From Bacteroidales bacterium (GTDB taxonomy: Bacteria > Bacteroidota > Bacteroidia > Bacteroidales > UBA932), in assembly GCA_017934185.1 (NCBI GenBank), contig JAGBJY010000018.1, positions 1-47,901 of the forward strand: DNA of 47,901 nucleotides. Direction: 5' to 3'. Numbering within the stretch: the stretch's first letter is position 1; each line of letters starts with the position of its first letter. Below, one piece after another: positions 2,266 to 16,258 of the stretch. A program made the position numbers and the translations under genes. The notes below the pieces were generated by a model that did not search any database, was not told where the DNA came from, and was given only the letters and a program-made list of their open reading frames with translations.

Positions 2266-5082
2266 ATGAAAATAAAGCTAAGCGCAATCCTCCTCACAAT
2301 TACTCTTGCCTGTGTTTCTCTGCAGGCCAGGGATAATAACATCTTTTATCCGCCCACAGAAGTTTTCACAAAAGACCTTTACAGGGCCGACGGAAAAAAC
2401 TGGGCCATTCAGGCTTCAGAAGAAGGAATGGTCTACACAGGCAATAACCGGGGACTATTAGTTTATGACGGTTACAGGTGGGAACTCCTTCAACATCCCG
2501 GAGCACATCCCATTCGCGCCCTTCTCATGGCGGAAGGTAGAGTCTATGTAGGCTCCTACATGGAGTTTGGTTTCTACAACAAAAACACCTCCGGGCGGTG
2601 GGAATATACCTCCTTGTCGGCCACCGTAGACGAAGACCTCCTGAAAAAGGATGAAATTTGGAACATCGAAATAAGCGGGGACCGCGTAGTCTTCCAATCC
2701 TTCTACGGCCTGTATGTGTATGACGGAGTTTCGGTAAAGACTTTTCGCTTCCAACATTTTATCCAGTCTTTCCATATTCACAGCACCGGTGAAGCGCTTG
2801 TATGGTTCTTAGACCAAGGAGTGGCTACTGTTGACCTTACCACGGGAGAGTTCCAACCTTCTAGTGAAAGTCCTTTCAACAGCTACATTGTCCGCTGGAT
2901 TTCAGAAGGCAACGGCTCTCATCTTGTTCTTACTTTTTCTGACGGGCTGTTCAGGATGAAGGAGGGCAGATATGAACCCTTCCCCACAGAGATTGATGCC
3001 CTCATCAAAAGGTCACAGCCCCTCTGCGCAGTCCGTGATTCCACCAACGGCAGCATTTATATTGGGACCAAACTGGAAGGCATCTTTGTATTGTCTCCAA
3101 AGGGAAAACTGCTATGGCATTTTTCTACAGACAACTTGCTGCCAGACAACATTATTGAAAAGATTTCCCTTGGCGTCCAAGGCGATGTGTGGGCTGCAAC
3201 CGGGAACGGAATAGCCCGTATCATGATCCAGGCCCCTACAAAGAATATCTTAAACCTGACCCCTTCTGTGGGAGATATTAACACGGCACTGTATACTCCT
3301 CCTTACCTGTATTTAGGCACGTCGCAAGGCTTGTACAAAGGCATTCTTACAGAGGATTTCCAGCAACTGAAAAACATTGAGCATATTTCCTCCATCAATA
3401 CAAGCGTTCTGAGTCTGTCTCGTTTTTCAGACCAGGTGTTTTGCGGAACCAATGACTACACTTTTGAGCTTACGCAAAACAACCTTCCCAAACTGCAGTG
3501 CCGGGTATCCGGAGGAGCCGACATGGACAGCGGTACCATCCATGGCAAGGAGGTTATCATACAAGGAACATATACGCGGCTCTGCGTATATATACGCGAA
3601 AATGGCCAATGGAAATACAGCCATAAAGTGGAAGATTTTCTAGGCCCGGTTACCAGTTGTAAAATAGCCCATGACGGAACCATTTGGGCAGCCTCGCAGC
3701 ACGGAGGACTATACGCCATGAAGCTGGAGGACTCACTGCAAAAGGCTTCCAGTTTAAAGTATTACAAAGACCTGGACTCAAATACCACACTCCCCATCCA
3801 AGTTTGCCGATATGCCAATAGGGTTGTCTTTTGTGATGGGAAAACAGGTGTTTACACTTACGATGATATCCACGACAAAATTGTTCCGCTTAAACATCTT
3901 GGTGCATATTCTCAAGTGCAATCGATAGTTCCAGCCGAAAATGACACACATTTCTTCCTCTTCGAGGACAGGGTGATGCTTATGAAAACAACGGCCGACT
4001 CTCTGGTAATGGTACACAACCTGTCTTATCCCAAGAACGAAGTAAGGTCCATAGACGGTCCCCAACGAATTGTTCCTCTCGGAAGCCAGCATAGCCTTCT
4101 TCCCCGGCATAACGCATTGATTATCTTTGACAATTCCCCTGTAAAAAAAATGGACACCTGCTCACTAGGAACCCTGTCACTGGCAAGGCTTAGAATAGAG
4201 GATTTCACGAAAGGCGAACAGCAACTGATTCCTCTTGACAAGAAAACACAGGTACGTATCCCCTACCGATTCAACAATCTTACATTCACGTACTGTTTCC
4301 CCTCCCTTAAAGCGAACTGTGCCGTATCTTTTAGATACAAGGTGACGGGGCTGGACAATCAATGGCACAGTATGGGAGAAATCCCCGATTTGTCCCTAAA
4401 ATATCTCAGAGAAGGAAAATATACCGTTTGCGCCCAAGCGGTGTCGCCCGACGGGAAGACCGTATCACAACATGACTACACCTTTGTGATAAAGCCTCCT
4501 TTCTACCGCTCAATGCCCATGTATGCTTTGTCTCTGCTGCTTGTCTTTGCACTTATCAGCCTATATATCGCATTCCGGAAAAGACAAATTATCAATGAGA
4601 AGAATTTAGCCATTCGCCGGATAAGGGAAGAAGAAATGGAGAACGAACTGAGGCTCAAAAACGAAGAACTGTCAGAAAGGCTATGGACCCGTTTCCACTG
4701 GAACGAAGCCCTGATGCGGATCAAGAAAACCCTCACAGAACAAAAACTACGGCTGGGGAAGAATTATCCGGACAAAGACTTCTCTGCCGTATGCAACCTC
4801 ATTGACAAACAAATGTTTTCTGAGAGCGAATGGGATAAGTTTTCCGGGAACTTTGACCTTACCCACAATAACTTTATCACCAGATTGGCAGCAGAGTATC
4901 CTCAACTCTCAGAGAACGATATCCGCTTCTGCACTTATCTTCGGATGAATATCGAGAACAAAGAGCTGGCCACCCTGCTTAATCTCTCGCCCAAGGGAGT
5001 TGAAGCAGCCCGCTACCGCCTGAGGAAAAAGTTTGGTCTTGGAAGGGATGAATCGCTCAATATGTTCCTGCTGAACTATTAG
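2266..5082 (+). CDS. Triple-tyrosine-motif sensor with propeller and C-terminal HTH
   Basis: This 938-residue membrane sensor/regulator has a signal peptide (MKIKLSAILLTITLACVSLQA), then about 650 residues of two-component-regulator-type beta-propeller repeats. A Y_Y_Y domain follows, with SFRYKVTGLDNQWHSM and LREGKYTVCAQA. Next come one transmembrane helix (MYALSLLLVFALISLYIAF), a short charged coiled coil (REEEMENELRLKNEELSERL) and a LuxR-like HTH ending (ENDIRFCTYLRM, NKELATLLNLSPKGVEAARY). There is no histidine kinase or receiver domain, so it should act as a one-component trans-membrane regulator: periplasmic sensing, cytoplasmic DNA binding. The ligand is unknown. It is AT-richer than the genes after 6347 and sits beside the repeat-bounded patch, which suggests it was acquired. 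Its 3' end overlaps the convergent MarR-like gene by 26 bp. Confidence 0.85.
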   Translation: MKIKLSAILLTITLACVSLQARDNNIFYPPTEVFTKDLYRADGKNWAIQASEEGMVYTGNNRGLLVYDGYRWELLQHPGAHPIRALLMAEGRVYVGSYMEFGFYNKNTSGRWEYTSLSATVDEDLLKKDEIWNIEISGDRVVFQSFYGLYVYDGVSVKTFRFQHFIQSFHIHSTGEALVWFLDQGVATVDLTTGEFQPSSESPFNSYIVRWISEGNGSHLVLTFSDGLFRMKEGRYEPFPTEIDALIKRSQPLCAVRDSTNGSIYIGTKLEGIFVLSPKGKLLWHFSTDNLLPDNIIEKISLGVQGDVWAATGNGIARIMIQAPTKNILNLTPSVGDINTALYTPPYLYLGTSQGLYKGILTEDFQQLKNIEHISSINTSVLSLSRFSDQVFCGTNDYTFELTQNNLPKLQCRVSGGADMDSGTIHGKEVIIQGTYTRLCVYIRENGQWKYSHKVEDFLGPVTSCKIAHDGTIWAASQHGGLYAMKLEDSLQKASSLKYYKDLDSNTTLPIQVCRYANRVVFCDGKTGVYTYDDIHDKIVPLKHLGAYSQVQSIVPAENDTHFFLFEDRVMLMKTTADSLVMVHNLSYPKNEVRSIDGPQRIVPLGSQHSLLPRHNALIIFDNSPVKKMDTCSLGTLSLARLRIEDFTKGEQQLIPLDKKTQVRIPYRFNNLTFTYCFPSLKANCAVSFRYKVTGLDNQWHSMGEIPDLSLKYLREGKYTVCAQAVSPDGKTVSQHDYTFVIKPPFYRSMPMYALSLLLVFALISLYIAFRKRQIINEKNLAIRRIREEEMENELRLKNEELSERLWTRFHWNEALMRIKKTLTEQKLRLGKNYPDKDFSAVCNLIDKQMFSESEWDKFSGNFDLTHNNFITRLAAEYPQLSENDIRFCTYLRMNIENKELATLLNLSPKGVEAARYRLRKKFGLGRDESLNMFLLNY

Positions 5083-14221: not shown

Positions 14222-16087
14222 CTATTTCTTCTTGTGTTTTCGCGCTGCAATATTAAGGCTTTGTTTTGAACTCTGCAAGCCCTTCGAAGAATTTTTCGAA
14301 GAATTTTTAAAGAAAAATGATTTTTGCTGCTGTTTCTTCTCAGGATTGTGCTCGGTAAAGACCGGCGTCATGTCGCGGGGATCCAGTCCGGAGTAGAACA
14401 TAACCGAGGAAGTGGTCATGGGGGTGGGCGTGAAATCCTGCACCTGGTCCATCCAAATTCCCTTGAGGGCGGGATGGTTGGCCAGGTTCTGCATGTCCTT
14501 GAGGGTGCAGCCCGGATGGGAGGAGATGAAGTACGGCACCAGCCCCACGTGGGTTCCGGCCTCGCGGTTCACTTTGTCAAATTCTTTGCGCAGGCGCTCG
14601 AAAAGGCGGAAACTGGGTTTGGCCATTTTCTGAAGCACGTGATCTTCCGTGTGTTCCGGCGCTACTTTCAATCGGCCGGAAGTGTGGTTCAGGACCAGGG
14701 TTTTCAGGTAGGGCTTGGAACTGTCGTCCACAAAACCGTCCTCCGTAAGGAAGAGGTCATAACGGATGCCGCTGCCGATGTAACTGTGGCGGATGCCCTT
14801 GGTGTTGTCAATCTCCCGGAGCAGGGCCATGAGGCGGGTATGGTCGGTCTCCAGGTTGGGGCAACGGGCCGGGAACAGGCAGCTGCGGCGCTTGCACTTG
14901 TCGCAGATATTGAGGTTCTTGCCGTGCATGCCGTACATATTGGCTGTAGGAGCGCCCACATCCGAGATGTTGCCGGCAAAACCCGGCAAGTCATTCAGCT
15001 GCTCAACTTCCTTCAGGATAGACTGCTCGCTGCGGGACTGGATGAACTTGCCCTGATGCGCCGCAATGGTACAGAAGTTACAGCCGCCAAAACAGCCCCT
15101 GTGCGTATTCACGCTGAATTTAATCATGTCGTAGGCCGGAATGCGCTTGCCCTTGTAGCGCGGATGCGGCAGTTTGGTAAAAGGAAGGTCCCAGAAGGAG
15201 TCCATTTCCTCGGTGGTAGCCGGCGGAAAAGGCGGATTAATCTGCACGTACCCCTCCCCCACCGGTTCCAGGATGGTGTCCGGATGCATCATGTTGGCAT
15301 GGGTCTCAATCCAGTGGAAGTTCTCGGCAAAAGCACGTTTGTCTTTCAGGCACTCTTCGTAGCTGTGCAGCACCAGCGTTCCGGATAGGGAGGCCTTTTC
15401 TGGAGCATTTGCCCGGACAGGGTCGCAAAGCGACGCGGAAGAAAAGGCCTCCCTATCCGGAACGCGCCCCTTCACATAGAAAGCAATCTGCGGAATCTGC
15501 TGCATCCGGTGGCGGGTCCAGCCCTTTTCGATGCCCTTGGTGAGTTCCAGCATCGGCCTTTCTCCCATACCGTAGCAGAGATAATCGGCCCCGGAAGACA
15601 CCAGGACAGAGGGCAGAAGGCAGTCTTTCCAGTAATCGTAATGGGTGAGGCGCCTCAGGGAGGCTTCTATGCCGCCGATGATCACCGGCACCTCCGGGAA
15701 CAGTTTTTTCAGGATTTGGGTGTACACCGTCACAGCGTAATCCGGACGGGCACCGGCTTTGCCTTCCGGGGTGTAGGCATCGTCATGGCGCAGGCGCTTG
15801 GAGGCCGTGTAATGGTTCACCATGGAGTCCATGGCGCCGGAATTGAGGCCGAAATACAGCCTGGGGGCGCCCAGTTTGCGAAAGTCACGAAGGTCGTCGC
15901 GCCAGTTGGGCTGCGGAACCACGGCCACCCGGTACCCCCATTTTTGCAGCCAGCGCGCTATCACCGCCGTCCCGAAAGACGGATGGTCAATGAAAGCGTC
16001 ACCGCTGAACAGGATTACATCAACGTAATCCCAGCCCAGCGCCTGCACTTCCTTTACGGAGGTGGGAAACATGTAATTCTCGGCCAT
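14222..16087 (-). CDS. ygiQ: YgiQ-family radical SAM protein with in-frame palindromic insert
   Basis: This 621-residue UPF0313/YgiQ protein has an N-terminal domain (MFPTSVKEVQALGWDYVDVI, FGLNSGAMDSMVNHYT, IIGGIEASLRRLTHYDYW). The radical SAM core carries GCFGGCNFCT, so the CxxxCxxC cysteines are about residues 332, 336 and 339. An extra cysteine cluster follows (CDKCKRRSCLFPARC), and the tail is Lys-rich. Residues of about 209-237 are absent from ordinary relatives, where the sequence passes from GRVP straight to (V)LHSYEECL. This insert is encoded by the long inverted repeat at 15377-15464. The start at 16087 fits the -7 box at 16096; the longer frame is unsupported. It is the first gene of the six-gene operon. 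The reaction catalysed by YgiQ is not established. Confidence 0.95.
   Translation of the reverse strand: MAENYMFPTSVKEVQALGWDYVDVILFSGDAFIDHPSFGTAVIARWLQKWGYRVAVVPQPNWRDDLRDFRKLGAPRLYFGLNSGAMDSMVNHYTASKRLRHDDAYTPEGKAGARPDYAVTVYTQILKKLFPEVPVIIGGIEASLRRLTHYDYWKDCLLPSVLVSSGADYLCYGMGERPMLELTKGIEKGWTRHRMQQIPQIAFYVKGRVPDREAFSSASLCDPVRANAPEKASLSGTLVLHSYEECLKDKRAFAENFHWIETHANMMHPDTILEPVGEGYVQINPPFPPATTEEMDSFWDLPFTKLPHPRYKGKRIPAYDMIKFSVNTHRGCFGGCNFCTIAAHQGKFIQSRSEQSILKEVEQLNDLPGFAGNISDVGAPTANMYGMHGKNLNICDKCKRRSCLFPARCPNLETDHTRLMALLREIDNTKGIRHSYIGSGIRYDLFLTEDGFVDDSSKPYLKTLVLNHTSGRLKVAPEHTEDHVLQKMAKPSFRLFERLRKEFDKVNREAGTHVGLVPYFISSHPGCTLKDMQNLANHPALKGIWMDQVQDFTPTPMTTSSVMFYSGLDPRDMTPVFTEHNPEKKQQQKSFFFKNSSKNSSKGLQSSKQSLNIAARKHKKK
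14285..14308. repeat. Two tandem 12-bp repeats in the ygiQ tail
   Basis: CGAAGAATTTTT occurs twice in a row and encodes the repeated KNSSKNSSK in the Lys-rich C-terminal tail of YgiQ. It may be a replication-slippage expansion. Confidence 0.6.
15377..15464. repeat. 25-bp perfect inverted repeat inside ygiQ
   Basis: The left arm 15377-15401 (CGTTCCGGATAGGGAGGCCT and five more bases) is perfectly complementary to the right arm 15440-15464. The 38-base loop contains its own hairpin GTCGC-AAA-GCGAC (15422-15434). The element keeps the ygiQ frame open and encodes roughly DREAFSSASLCDPVR then ANAPEKASLSGT. This is the form expected of a mobile palindromic element inserted into a coding sequence. 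Confidence 0.85.
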
Positions 16088-16095
16088 AGACAGGG

Positions 16096-16128
16096 CAAAA
16101 GTACAAAAAAATTTCACGCGAAACCAAA
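16096..16128 (-). promoter_or_regulatory. Promoter of the ygiQ-to-eamA operon
   Basis: TACTTTTG (16096-16103) is a full -7 match on the minus strand, 8 bases before the ATG, with TTTG (16125-16128) upstream at 21 bases. All six genes downstream are separated by 15 bases or fewer. Confidence 0.55.
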
Positions 16129-16258
16129 GCCGGCGCCTGTGAGAGGCCATTTTCGGCGCAAGAATTATTGCCTGCGCTTTTACAATTGGCTTACTATCAG
16201 TTATTTGCAGCGCAATAAAACTGTGCGCCAAATATTTTCTCACGCCGCATTTCTGCCC

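Follow-up and report, generated by a model that had tools for sequence, protein, structure and literature searches.

A dispersed palindromic element read in frame within ygiQ and other conserved genes of rumen Bacteroidales

Rickettsia palindromic elements (RPE) and their Wolbachia counterparts are, in the available text of PMC3767692 and PMC2229807, repeats of about 100–150 nt that fall into several families and lie in frame in conserved genes, with different families possible at orthologous sites. A statement in PMC6649704 holds that RPE lose the identity of their repeats over time. The accessible part of the same source describes perfect inverted repeats in the coding DNA of Nematomorpha mitochondrial genes, which are thought to be actively maintained and for which template switching has been proposed. 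In yeast genes, according to the excerpted text of PMC8604942, template switching causes both arm homogenisation and spacer inversion. Among bacterial repeats, the available portion of PMC3733652 reports CGTC repeats from five phyla, including Bacteroidetes, which carry a terminal CGTC, a stem of 8–9 bp with AT at its start, a loop of 4–5 nt and a CCA-like tail, and it notes that some REP palindromes are intragenic. At the level of titles and abstracts, in literature mostly outside subscription journals, no Bacteroidota family of intragenic palindromes was found.

The window analysed here, a stretch of 47,901 nt from a Bacteroidales bacterium (contig JAGBJY010000018.1), carries on its minus strand an open reading frame (14222..16243, with a start assumed near 16087) that matches Pfam Radical_SAM_N (E 1.5e-119) and encodes the radical SAM protein YgiQ. 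The gene contains an inverted repeat whose left arm (15376..15401) and right arm (15440..15465) are 100% complementary and separated by 38 nt. A sequence-only reading of this DNA had described a perfect inverted repeat of 25 bp; the repeat proved perfect and 26 nt long, with one base more at each end. The listing for the window comprises 72 inverted-repeat pairs, and of the 25 longest this alone is 100% complementary; its predicted fold reached z = -10.6 against 200 shuffles. The loop (15402..15439, minus strand) comprises an inner 28-nt core (15407..15434, GTCGCTTTGCGACCCTGTCCGGGCAAAT), nearly invariant across copies, the majority of which read GTCGCTTCGCGACCC..., and five outer nucleotides on each side (TCCGC and GCTCC on the minus strand), unchanged in most compiled copies. 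Sequence and fold both place a nested hairpin, GTCGC-TTT-GCGAC, at 15422..15434 of the minus strand, and the ygiQ frame runs through the element uninterrupted by stops; both features had been read correctly from the sequence.

The element measures 90 nt, or 30 codons, and replaces a short variable loop. The corresponding segment spans 189 nt here and 120 nt in an uninterrupted YgiQ gene of the genus (L103), a difference of 69 nt or 23 codons, so that the added segment anticipated earlier is real but its length, given as about 28 residues, was slightly overestimated. Two results that would have spoken against the earlier reading were looked for; instead, the genome proved to hold further copies, and many YgiQ proteins of the genus lack the extra residues. 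Within the own genome, YgiQ and RsmH each had one full match, the remaining matches being to the element peptide only.

A chance palindrome, or ordinary variation in the length of the YgiQ loop, is an extremely improbable explanation. The loop does differ in length among species, but a search of the 2.13-Mb own genome with the 90-nt element returned 33 matches with E up to 10, a figure that includes self on both strands, and defined 19 strong places (L001–L019; E < 1e-10), each with a 38-nt loop; the best non-self match had an E value of 3.6e-29, and a chance origin was rejected on these grounds. The 21-nt inner pattern, with up to two mismatches, occurred 21 times. Sixteen of the 19 strong places lie in an open frame of a Pfam-supported host gene; L007 and L018 had no Pfam support, and L017, at a contig end, was outside the Pfam set. 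The sequence-only reading had proposed a protein-coding palindrome family, comparable to that of Rickettsia, in the event that copies existed in other genes of the genome. These 19 places, the Pfam host genes at 16 of them and the empty sites in relatives described below bear out that proposal.

Other repeats of the own genome were recorded alongside. L020 retains part of the core and lacks arms. Four more places of the own genome, L021–L024, are read as intergenic from their flanking frames; there, and also at L212 and L230 of the later set described below, different hairpins, some of them A/T-rich and resembling terminators, hold the inner core in their loop, in a common frame CAACGCTCC..core..GTCGCTTATG. 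This form is possibly ancestral or regulatory. A scan of 447,901 bases, consisting of 20 stretches free of known copies plus the window, yielded 12 inverted repeats of at least 14 nt: the window element, five of the AAAAACAGTAAGCAAT family, two of the GCAAAAGGTCGG family and four others. A different long inverted repeat, of 18 pairs around a 38-nt loop of other sequence, was seen within a 586-codon open frame (L153, 5129–5204).

In related genomes, the 21-nt core pattern (up to one mismatch) was present in 27 of 200 sampled members of the genus, a count in which arms were not established for every case; a reversed control pattern gave none among the matches listed in the same scan. The 28-nt pattern occurred in the own genome only among 295 genomes of the order, with 0 of 293 from other genera. 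Viral contigs searched with the exact 21-nt pattern, and phages and plasmids searched with the 90-nt element, gave no match. Empty sites accompany the filled ones: the rsmH site is empty in G005, G061 and G028 and filled in G000 and G019, and the ygiQ site is empty in many genus members. As regards MITEs, which have terminal inverted repeats and a target-site duplication, the arms here are copy-specific, and the filled and empty sites at both genes are too diverged for a duplication to be visible. Two further observations concern these loops. In three other genomes the rsmH loop holds different inserts (L239, L235 and L232, from G078, G064 and G062), including GATTCCCGGAACAAGTCCGGGAATGAC, a sequence similar to the ATGAC motif found in certain Rickettsia repeats. 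In the ygiQ genes of G078 and G075 (L099, L100), a short symmetric TTCC..GGAA remnant at the insertion site may be what an older palindrome left behind on deletion. That the element has moved and spread is inferred from its copy number, its patchy distribution and the empty sites.

The codon phase of the element was analysed in a first set of 50 occurrences distinct by context, drawn from the own genome, six rumen Bacteroidales assemblies (obtained in a named scan of 14 loci), G005, G019 (11 of its 13 places) and G028. Four G028 loci identical to Tb.RUG.533 loci were left out, as was L043, whose context is identical to that of L009; because of this identity L009 may be a contaminant contig. 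When sixty candidate frames were submitted to Pfam, 36 of the 50 copies lay in phase 0 of a supported gene, that is, 36 of the 37 in-gene supported rows. The sole exception, L044, is off phase in a DUF6259 gene and has poor arms. Two copies (L022, L032) precede the domains of a supported gene and are probably 5' of it; eight found no Pfam support in any frame submitted (L007, L018, L035, two in L041, L046, L049 and L073), and three rows (L017, L021, L061) were outside the Pfam search. Four of these rows, L018, L035, L061 and L073, appear to be orthologous to hosts that do have support.

The 36 phase-0 copies are spread over 27 genes. With short gene names assigned from the Pfam descriptions, the hosts are ygiQ, ligA, folP, prephenate dehydrogenase, citrate lyase ligase/CitG, fmt, WbqC, fabD, a Fer4 protein, atpB, polA, truB, rsmH, truA, a SpoU methylase, miaA, M20 and M16 peptidases, cysS, YfhO, fabF, metG, A2M, MFS, atpG, an FMN-binding protein and dnaX. 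In a later set of 24 rows (L207–L230, about one locus per genome), 15 loci with 20 frames were put to Pfam, of which 12 were supported in phase 0, one (L217) was split and two were unsupported, giving 12 of 13 in phase. Across both sets, 48 of 50 Pfam-supported in-gene copies use one codon phase. Against an expectation of one-third, P is 7e-21 for these copies and 2.5e-12 for 27 of 28 first-set genes, with orthologous sites not being independent. At L217 (about 1450–1786), an A2M gene switches frame close to the element, between its upstream and downstream domains; the frame change may reflect a pseudogene, an assembly error or a frameshift.

The loop with consensus arms has no stop codon in any of the six frames. 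Phase 0 encodes SASLRDPVRANAPE on the core strand and GAFARTGSRSDAEE on the opposite strand. In this phase the peptide is acidic and Cys-free on either strand (charge -1 and -2), the other phases carrying charges of +4 to +7; hydropathy did not separate the phases. As to the trait of RPE and Wolbachia elements that the peptide lies in solvent-exposed parts of a still active protein, alignment with PDB sequences places the insert between aligned blocks in RsmH and at a gapped stretch in CysS. The predicted CysS model (mean pLDDT 37.5) was unusable. The single phase is most simply read as selection for a linker that can be tolerated, with a phase bias of insertion as a possible alternative.

The arms differ from copy to copy and nevertheless remain paired. 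When all 50 first-set rows are counted, 686 of 750 arm positions were paired; 1000 permutations of the right arms gave 393 on average and 432 at most. At least 13 of 15 positions were paired in 43 of the 50 rows; in these 43 rows pairing reached 623 of 645 (shuffled mean 374, maximum 416), and as many as four types of pair were seen at a single arm position. The seven rows without full arms are L021, L022, L031, L032, two in L041, and L044. Under a rule allowing mismatches, the median arm extends 22.5 positions outside the 38-nt loop. Pairing was lower in the later set, with 270 of 360 positions (shuffled mean 136, maximum 173), and since only 12 of its 24 rows had at least 13 of 15 positions paired, arms do decay in many copies; L208 and L224 of this set may not be elements.

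Such pairing could in principle be selected in mRNA, with the hairpin kept for an RNA function as an RNase III target, a translation pause or a determinant of stability. The very stable fold and the retention of pairing despite differing arms would suit this explanation, which we nonetheless regard as quite improbable. Among the arm pairs of 40 in-gene copies, 36 of 876 were mismatched, and in host-mRNA orientation these comprised 14 G.U, 13 A.C and 9 others; the wobble bias that RNA selection would leave is absent, which points to DNA rather than mRNA. Moreover, the host genes are unrelated, the insert is absent from ygiQ and rsmH of many genus members, and no Rfam family scored above its gathering score at the element. 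The Rfam search output of SAM-II riboswitch, RNase P and TPP riboswitch was rejected, as were microRNA families that lay below gathering scores and would fit any long hairpin.

Changes consistent with copying between arms were seen. Two ygiQ copies of a larger element, L096 and L102 (genomes G061 and G005), share their arms except for two changes, each of which is matched on the opposite side. The inner TCCGC reads GGAGC in four of five G028/Tb.RUG.533 copies and in L061, a three-base change that equals a copy of the opposite GCTCC.

The element occupies fourteen host genes in two or more species, and seven of them (folP, prephenate dehydrogenase, rsmH, YfhO, cysS, metG and polA) hold both orientations of the core, which, judging by the flanking residues, look to be in the same loop. 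Repeated insertion into one permissive loop, with no inversion in place, is a possible though doubtful origin of the two orientations. Arms in the same gene are often unlike, and the rsmH and ygiQ loops hold other inserts in other species. Mean arm likeness was 0.41 for the same gene in different species (17 pairs) and 0.30 for other pairs (763), weak as proof of common descent within a gene; because same-gene arms are only slightly more alike, independent insertion could account for most flipped sites. Against it stand two cases in which near-identical arms enclose an inverted loop: metG of two species (L051 and L214), with the 38-nt loop inverted, and ygiQ (L096 and L097), with the larger type of element.

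Six relatives (L096, L097, L098, L101, L102 and L119) have this larger, type-2 element in ygiQ, in one orientation or the other and with mutually similar arms, whereas ygiQ of the own genome holds type 1. The type-2 core was matched in 28 of 61 genus genomes. At 20 of 30 loci (L261–L290) it lay within an inverted repeat whose arms are specific to the copy; in eight of the remaining ten, the locus was partial and inspection fell beside the match. Type-2 elements use more than one codon phase. They were also noted at L172, L177, L184, L186, L194 and L198 and, like those at the 20 loci, some are in open frames; they combine a conserved multi-hairpin core with an apical hairpin that varies and with long arms particular to each copy.

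As to mobility, no transposase or donor for the element was found. It seems unlikely that the element is REP-like and moved by the genus's own IS200-like (RAYT) transposases. Y1_Tnp matches are present in 27 of 37 genus genomes, the own genome having three matches, and REP elements can be intragenic according to the available text of PMC3733652. However, at 12 transposase loci examined out of a larger set of listed matches, the core adjoined the gene at none; the terminal hairpins, where visible, were other sequences, and the core occurred at one locus, about 3 kb off, in cysS. In addition, the GTAG tag is missing and the stem is unlike the short stem of CGTC repeats. In their own right, AT-rich perfect palindromes AAAAACAGTAAGCAAT(N)ATTGCTTACTGTTTTT (L135 at 2114–2158 and 3855–3899, L149, L151, L152 and L164) lie on both sides of a Y1 transposase gene and are found again at other places of the own genome, an arrangement like that of REP systems.

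We consider it likely that the ygiQ palindrome belongs to a dispersed and translated family of selfish or mobile palindromes whose arms are homogenised, and whose loop is flipped, by template switching. The observations comprise many copies of a near-invariant core within paired but differing arms, a near-single phase, empty sites and inverted loops. On the proposed explanation, some enzyme would have moved this DNA into genes, and surviving insertions would be mainly those in tolerant loops and in the phase that encodes an acidic linker rich in Ser, Pro, Ala and Glu. During replication, template switching between the arms would copy one onto the other, so that arm sequence could drift and yet stay paired, and would at times re-copy the loop backwards; the loop could flip with no loss of frame because both strands are open in the phase used. 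Improbable, by our estimate, is a class of element that its architecture defines and not its arm sequence, in which template switching rewrites the arms around a conserved core and the core can be flipped or exchanged in place, giving about 30 proteins two alternative peptide states.

The family is a Bacteroidota counterpart, with many replicate sites, of the protein-coding palindromes of Rickettsia. Some uncultured rumen gut bacteria carry short palindromes in housekeeping genes that are nearly always read as an extra peptide in the same phase, a natural experiment on palindrome survival inside genes. Because several species have the same genes filled, with both orientations represented, events of arm homogenisation and of loop inversion become countable, and the single codon phase offers an opening to ask what kind of peptide makes a parasite of genes tolerable.

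In kind, the element resembles RPE, by description and not by sequence. Like the RPE and Wolbachia elements, as far as the available text describes them, it is a dispersed palindrome in frame in conserved protein genes; it is somewhat shorter, at 90 nt. The kind is known from Rickettsia; the element departs from it in its Bacteroidales host, its copy-specific and mostly paired arms, the loop inversion at a shared site and the different cores at one site. The sequence-only reading had included neither these features of arms, loop and cores nor the single codon phase. The arms here differ and still pair in most compiled copies, whereas RPE repeats are said, in the statement cited above, to diverge. 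Orthologous RPE and Wolbachia sites may differ in family, according to the available text. With the GTAG- and CGTC-tagged REP sequences, as partly described, it shares short palindromes that are sometimes intragenic, but its anatomy departs from that of CGTC repeats in its long arms and 38-nt loop, and unlike in REP/RAYT systems its core hairpin does not flank an IS200-like transposase gene (0 of 12 loci). The Nematomorpha palindromes are likewise inverted repeats in coding DNA for which template switching is the proposed cause; in the accessible account, native conserved protein is encoded in both arms there, whereas here the conserved part is the core of an inserted, dispersed element. Finally, the excerpted yeast work (PMC8604942) describes the same pair of outcomes, arm homogenisation and spacer inversion within coding sequence, at ordinary short repeats, while those considered here are copies of one inserted family.
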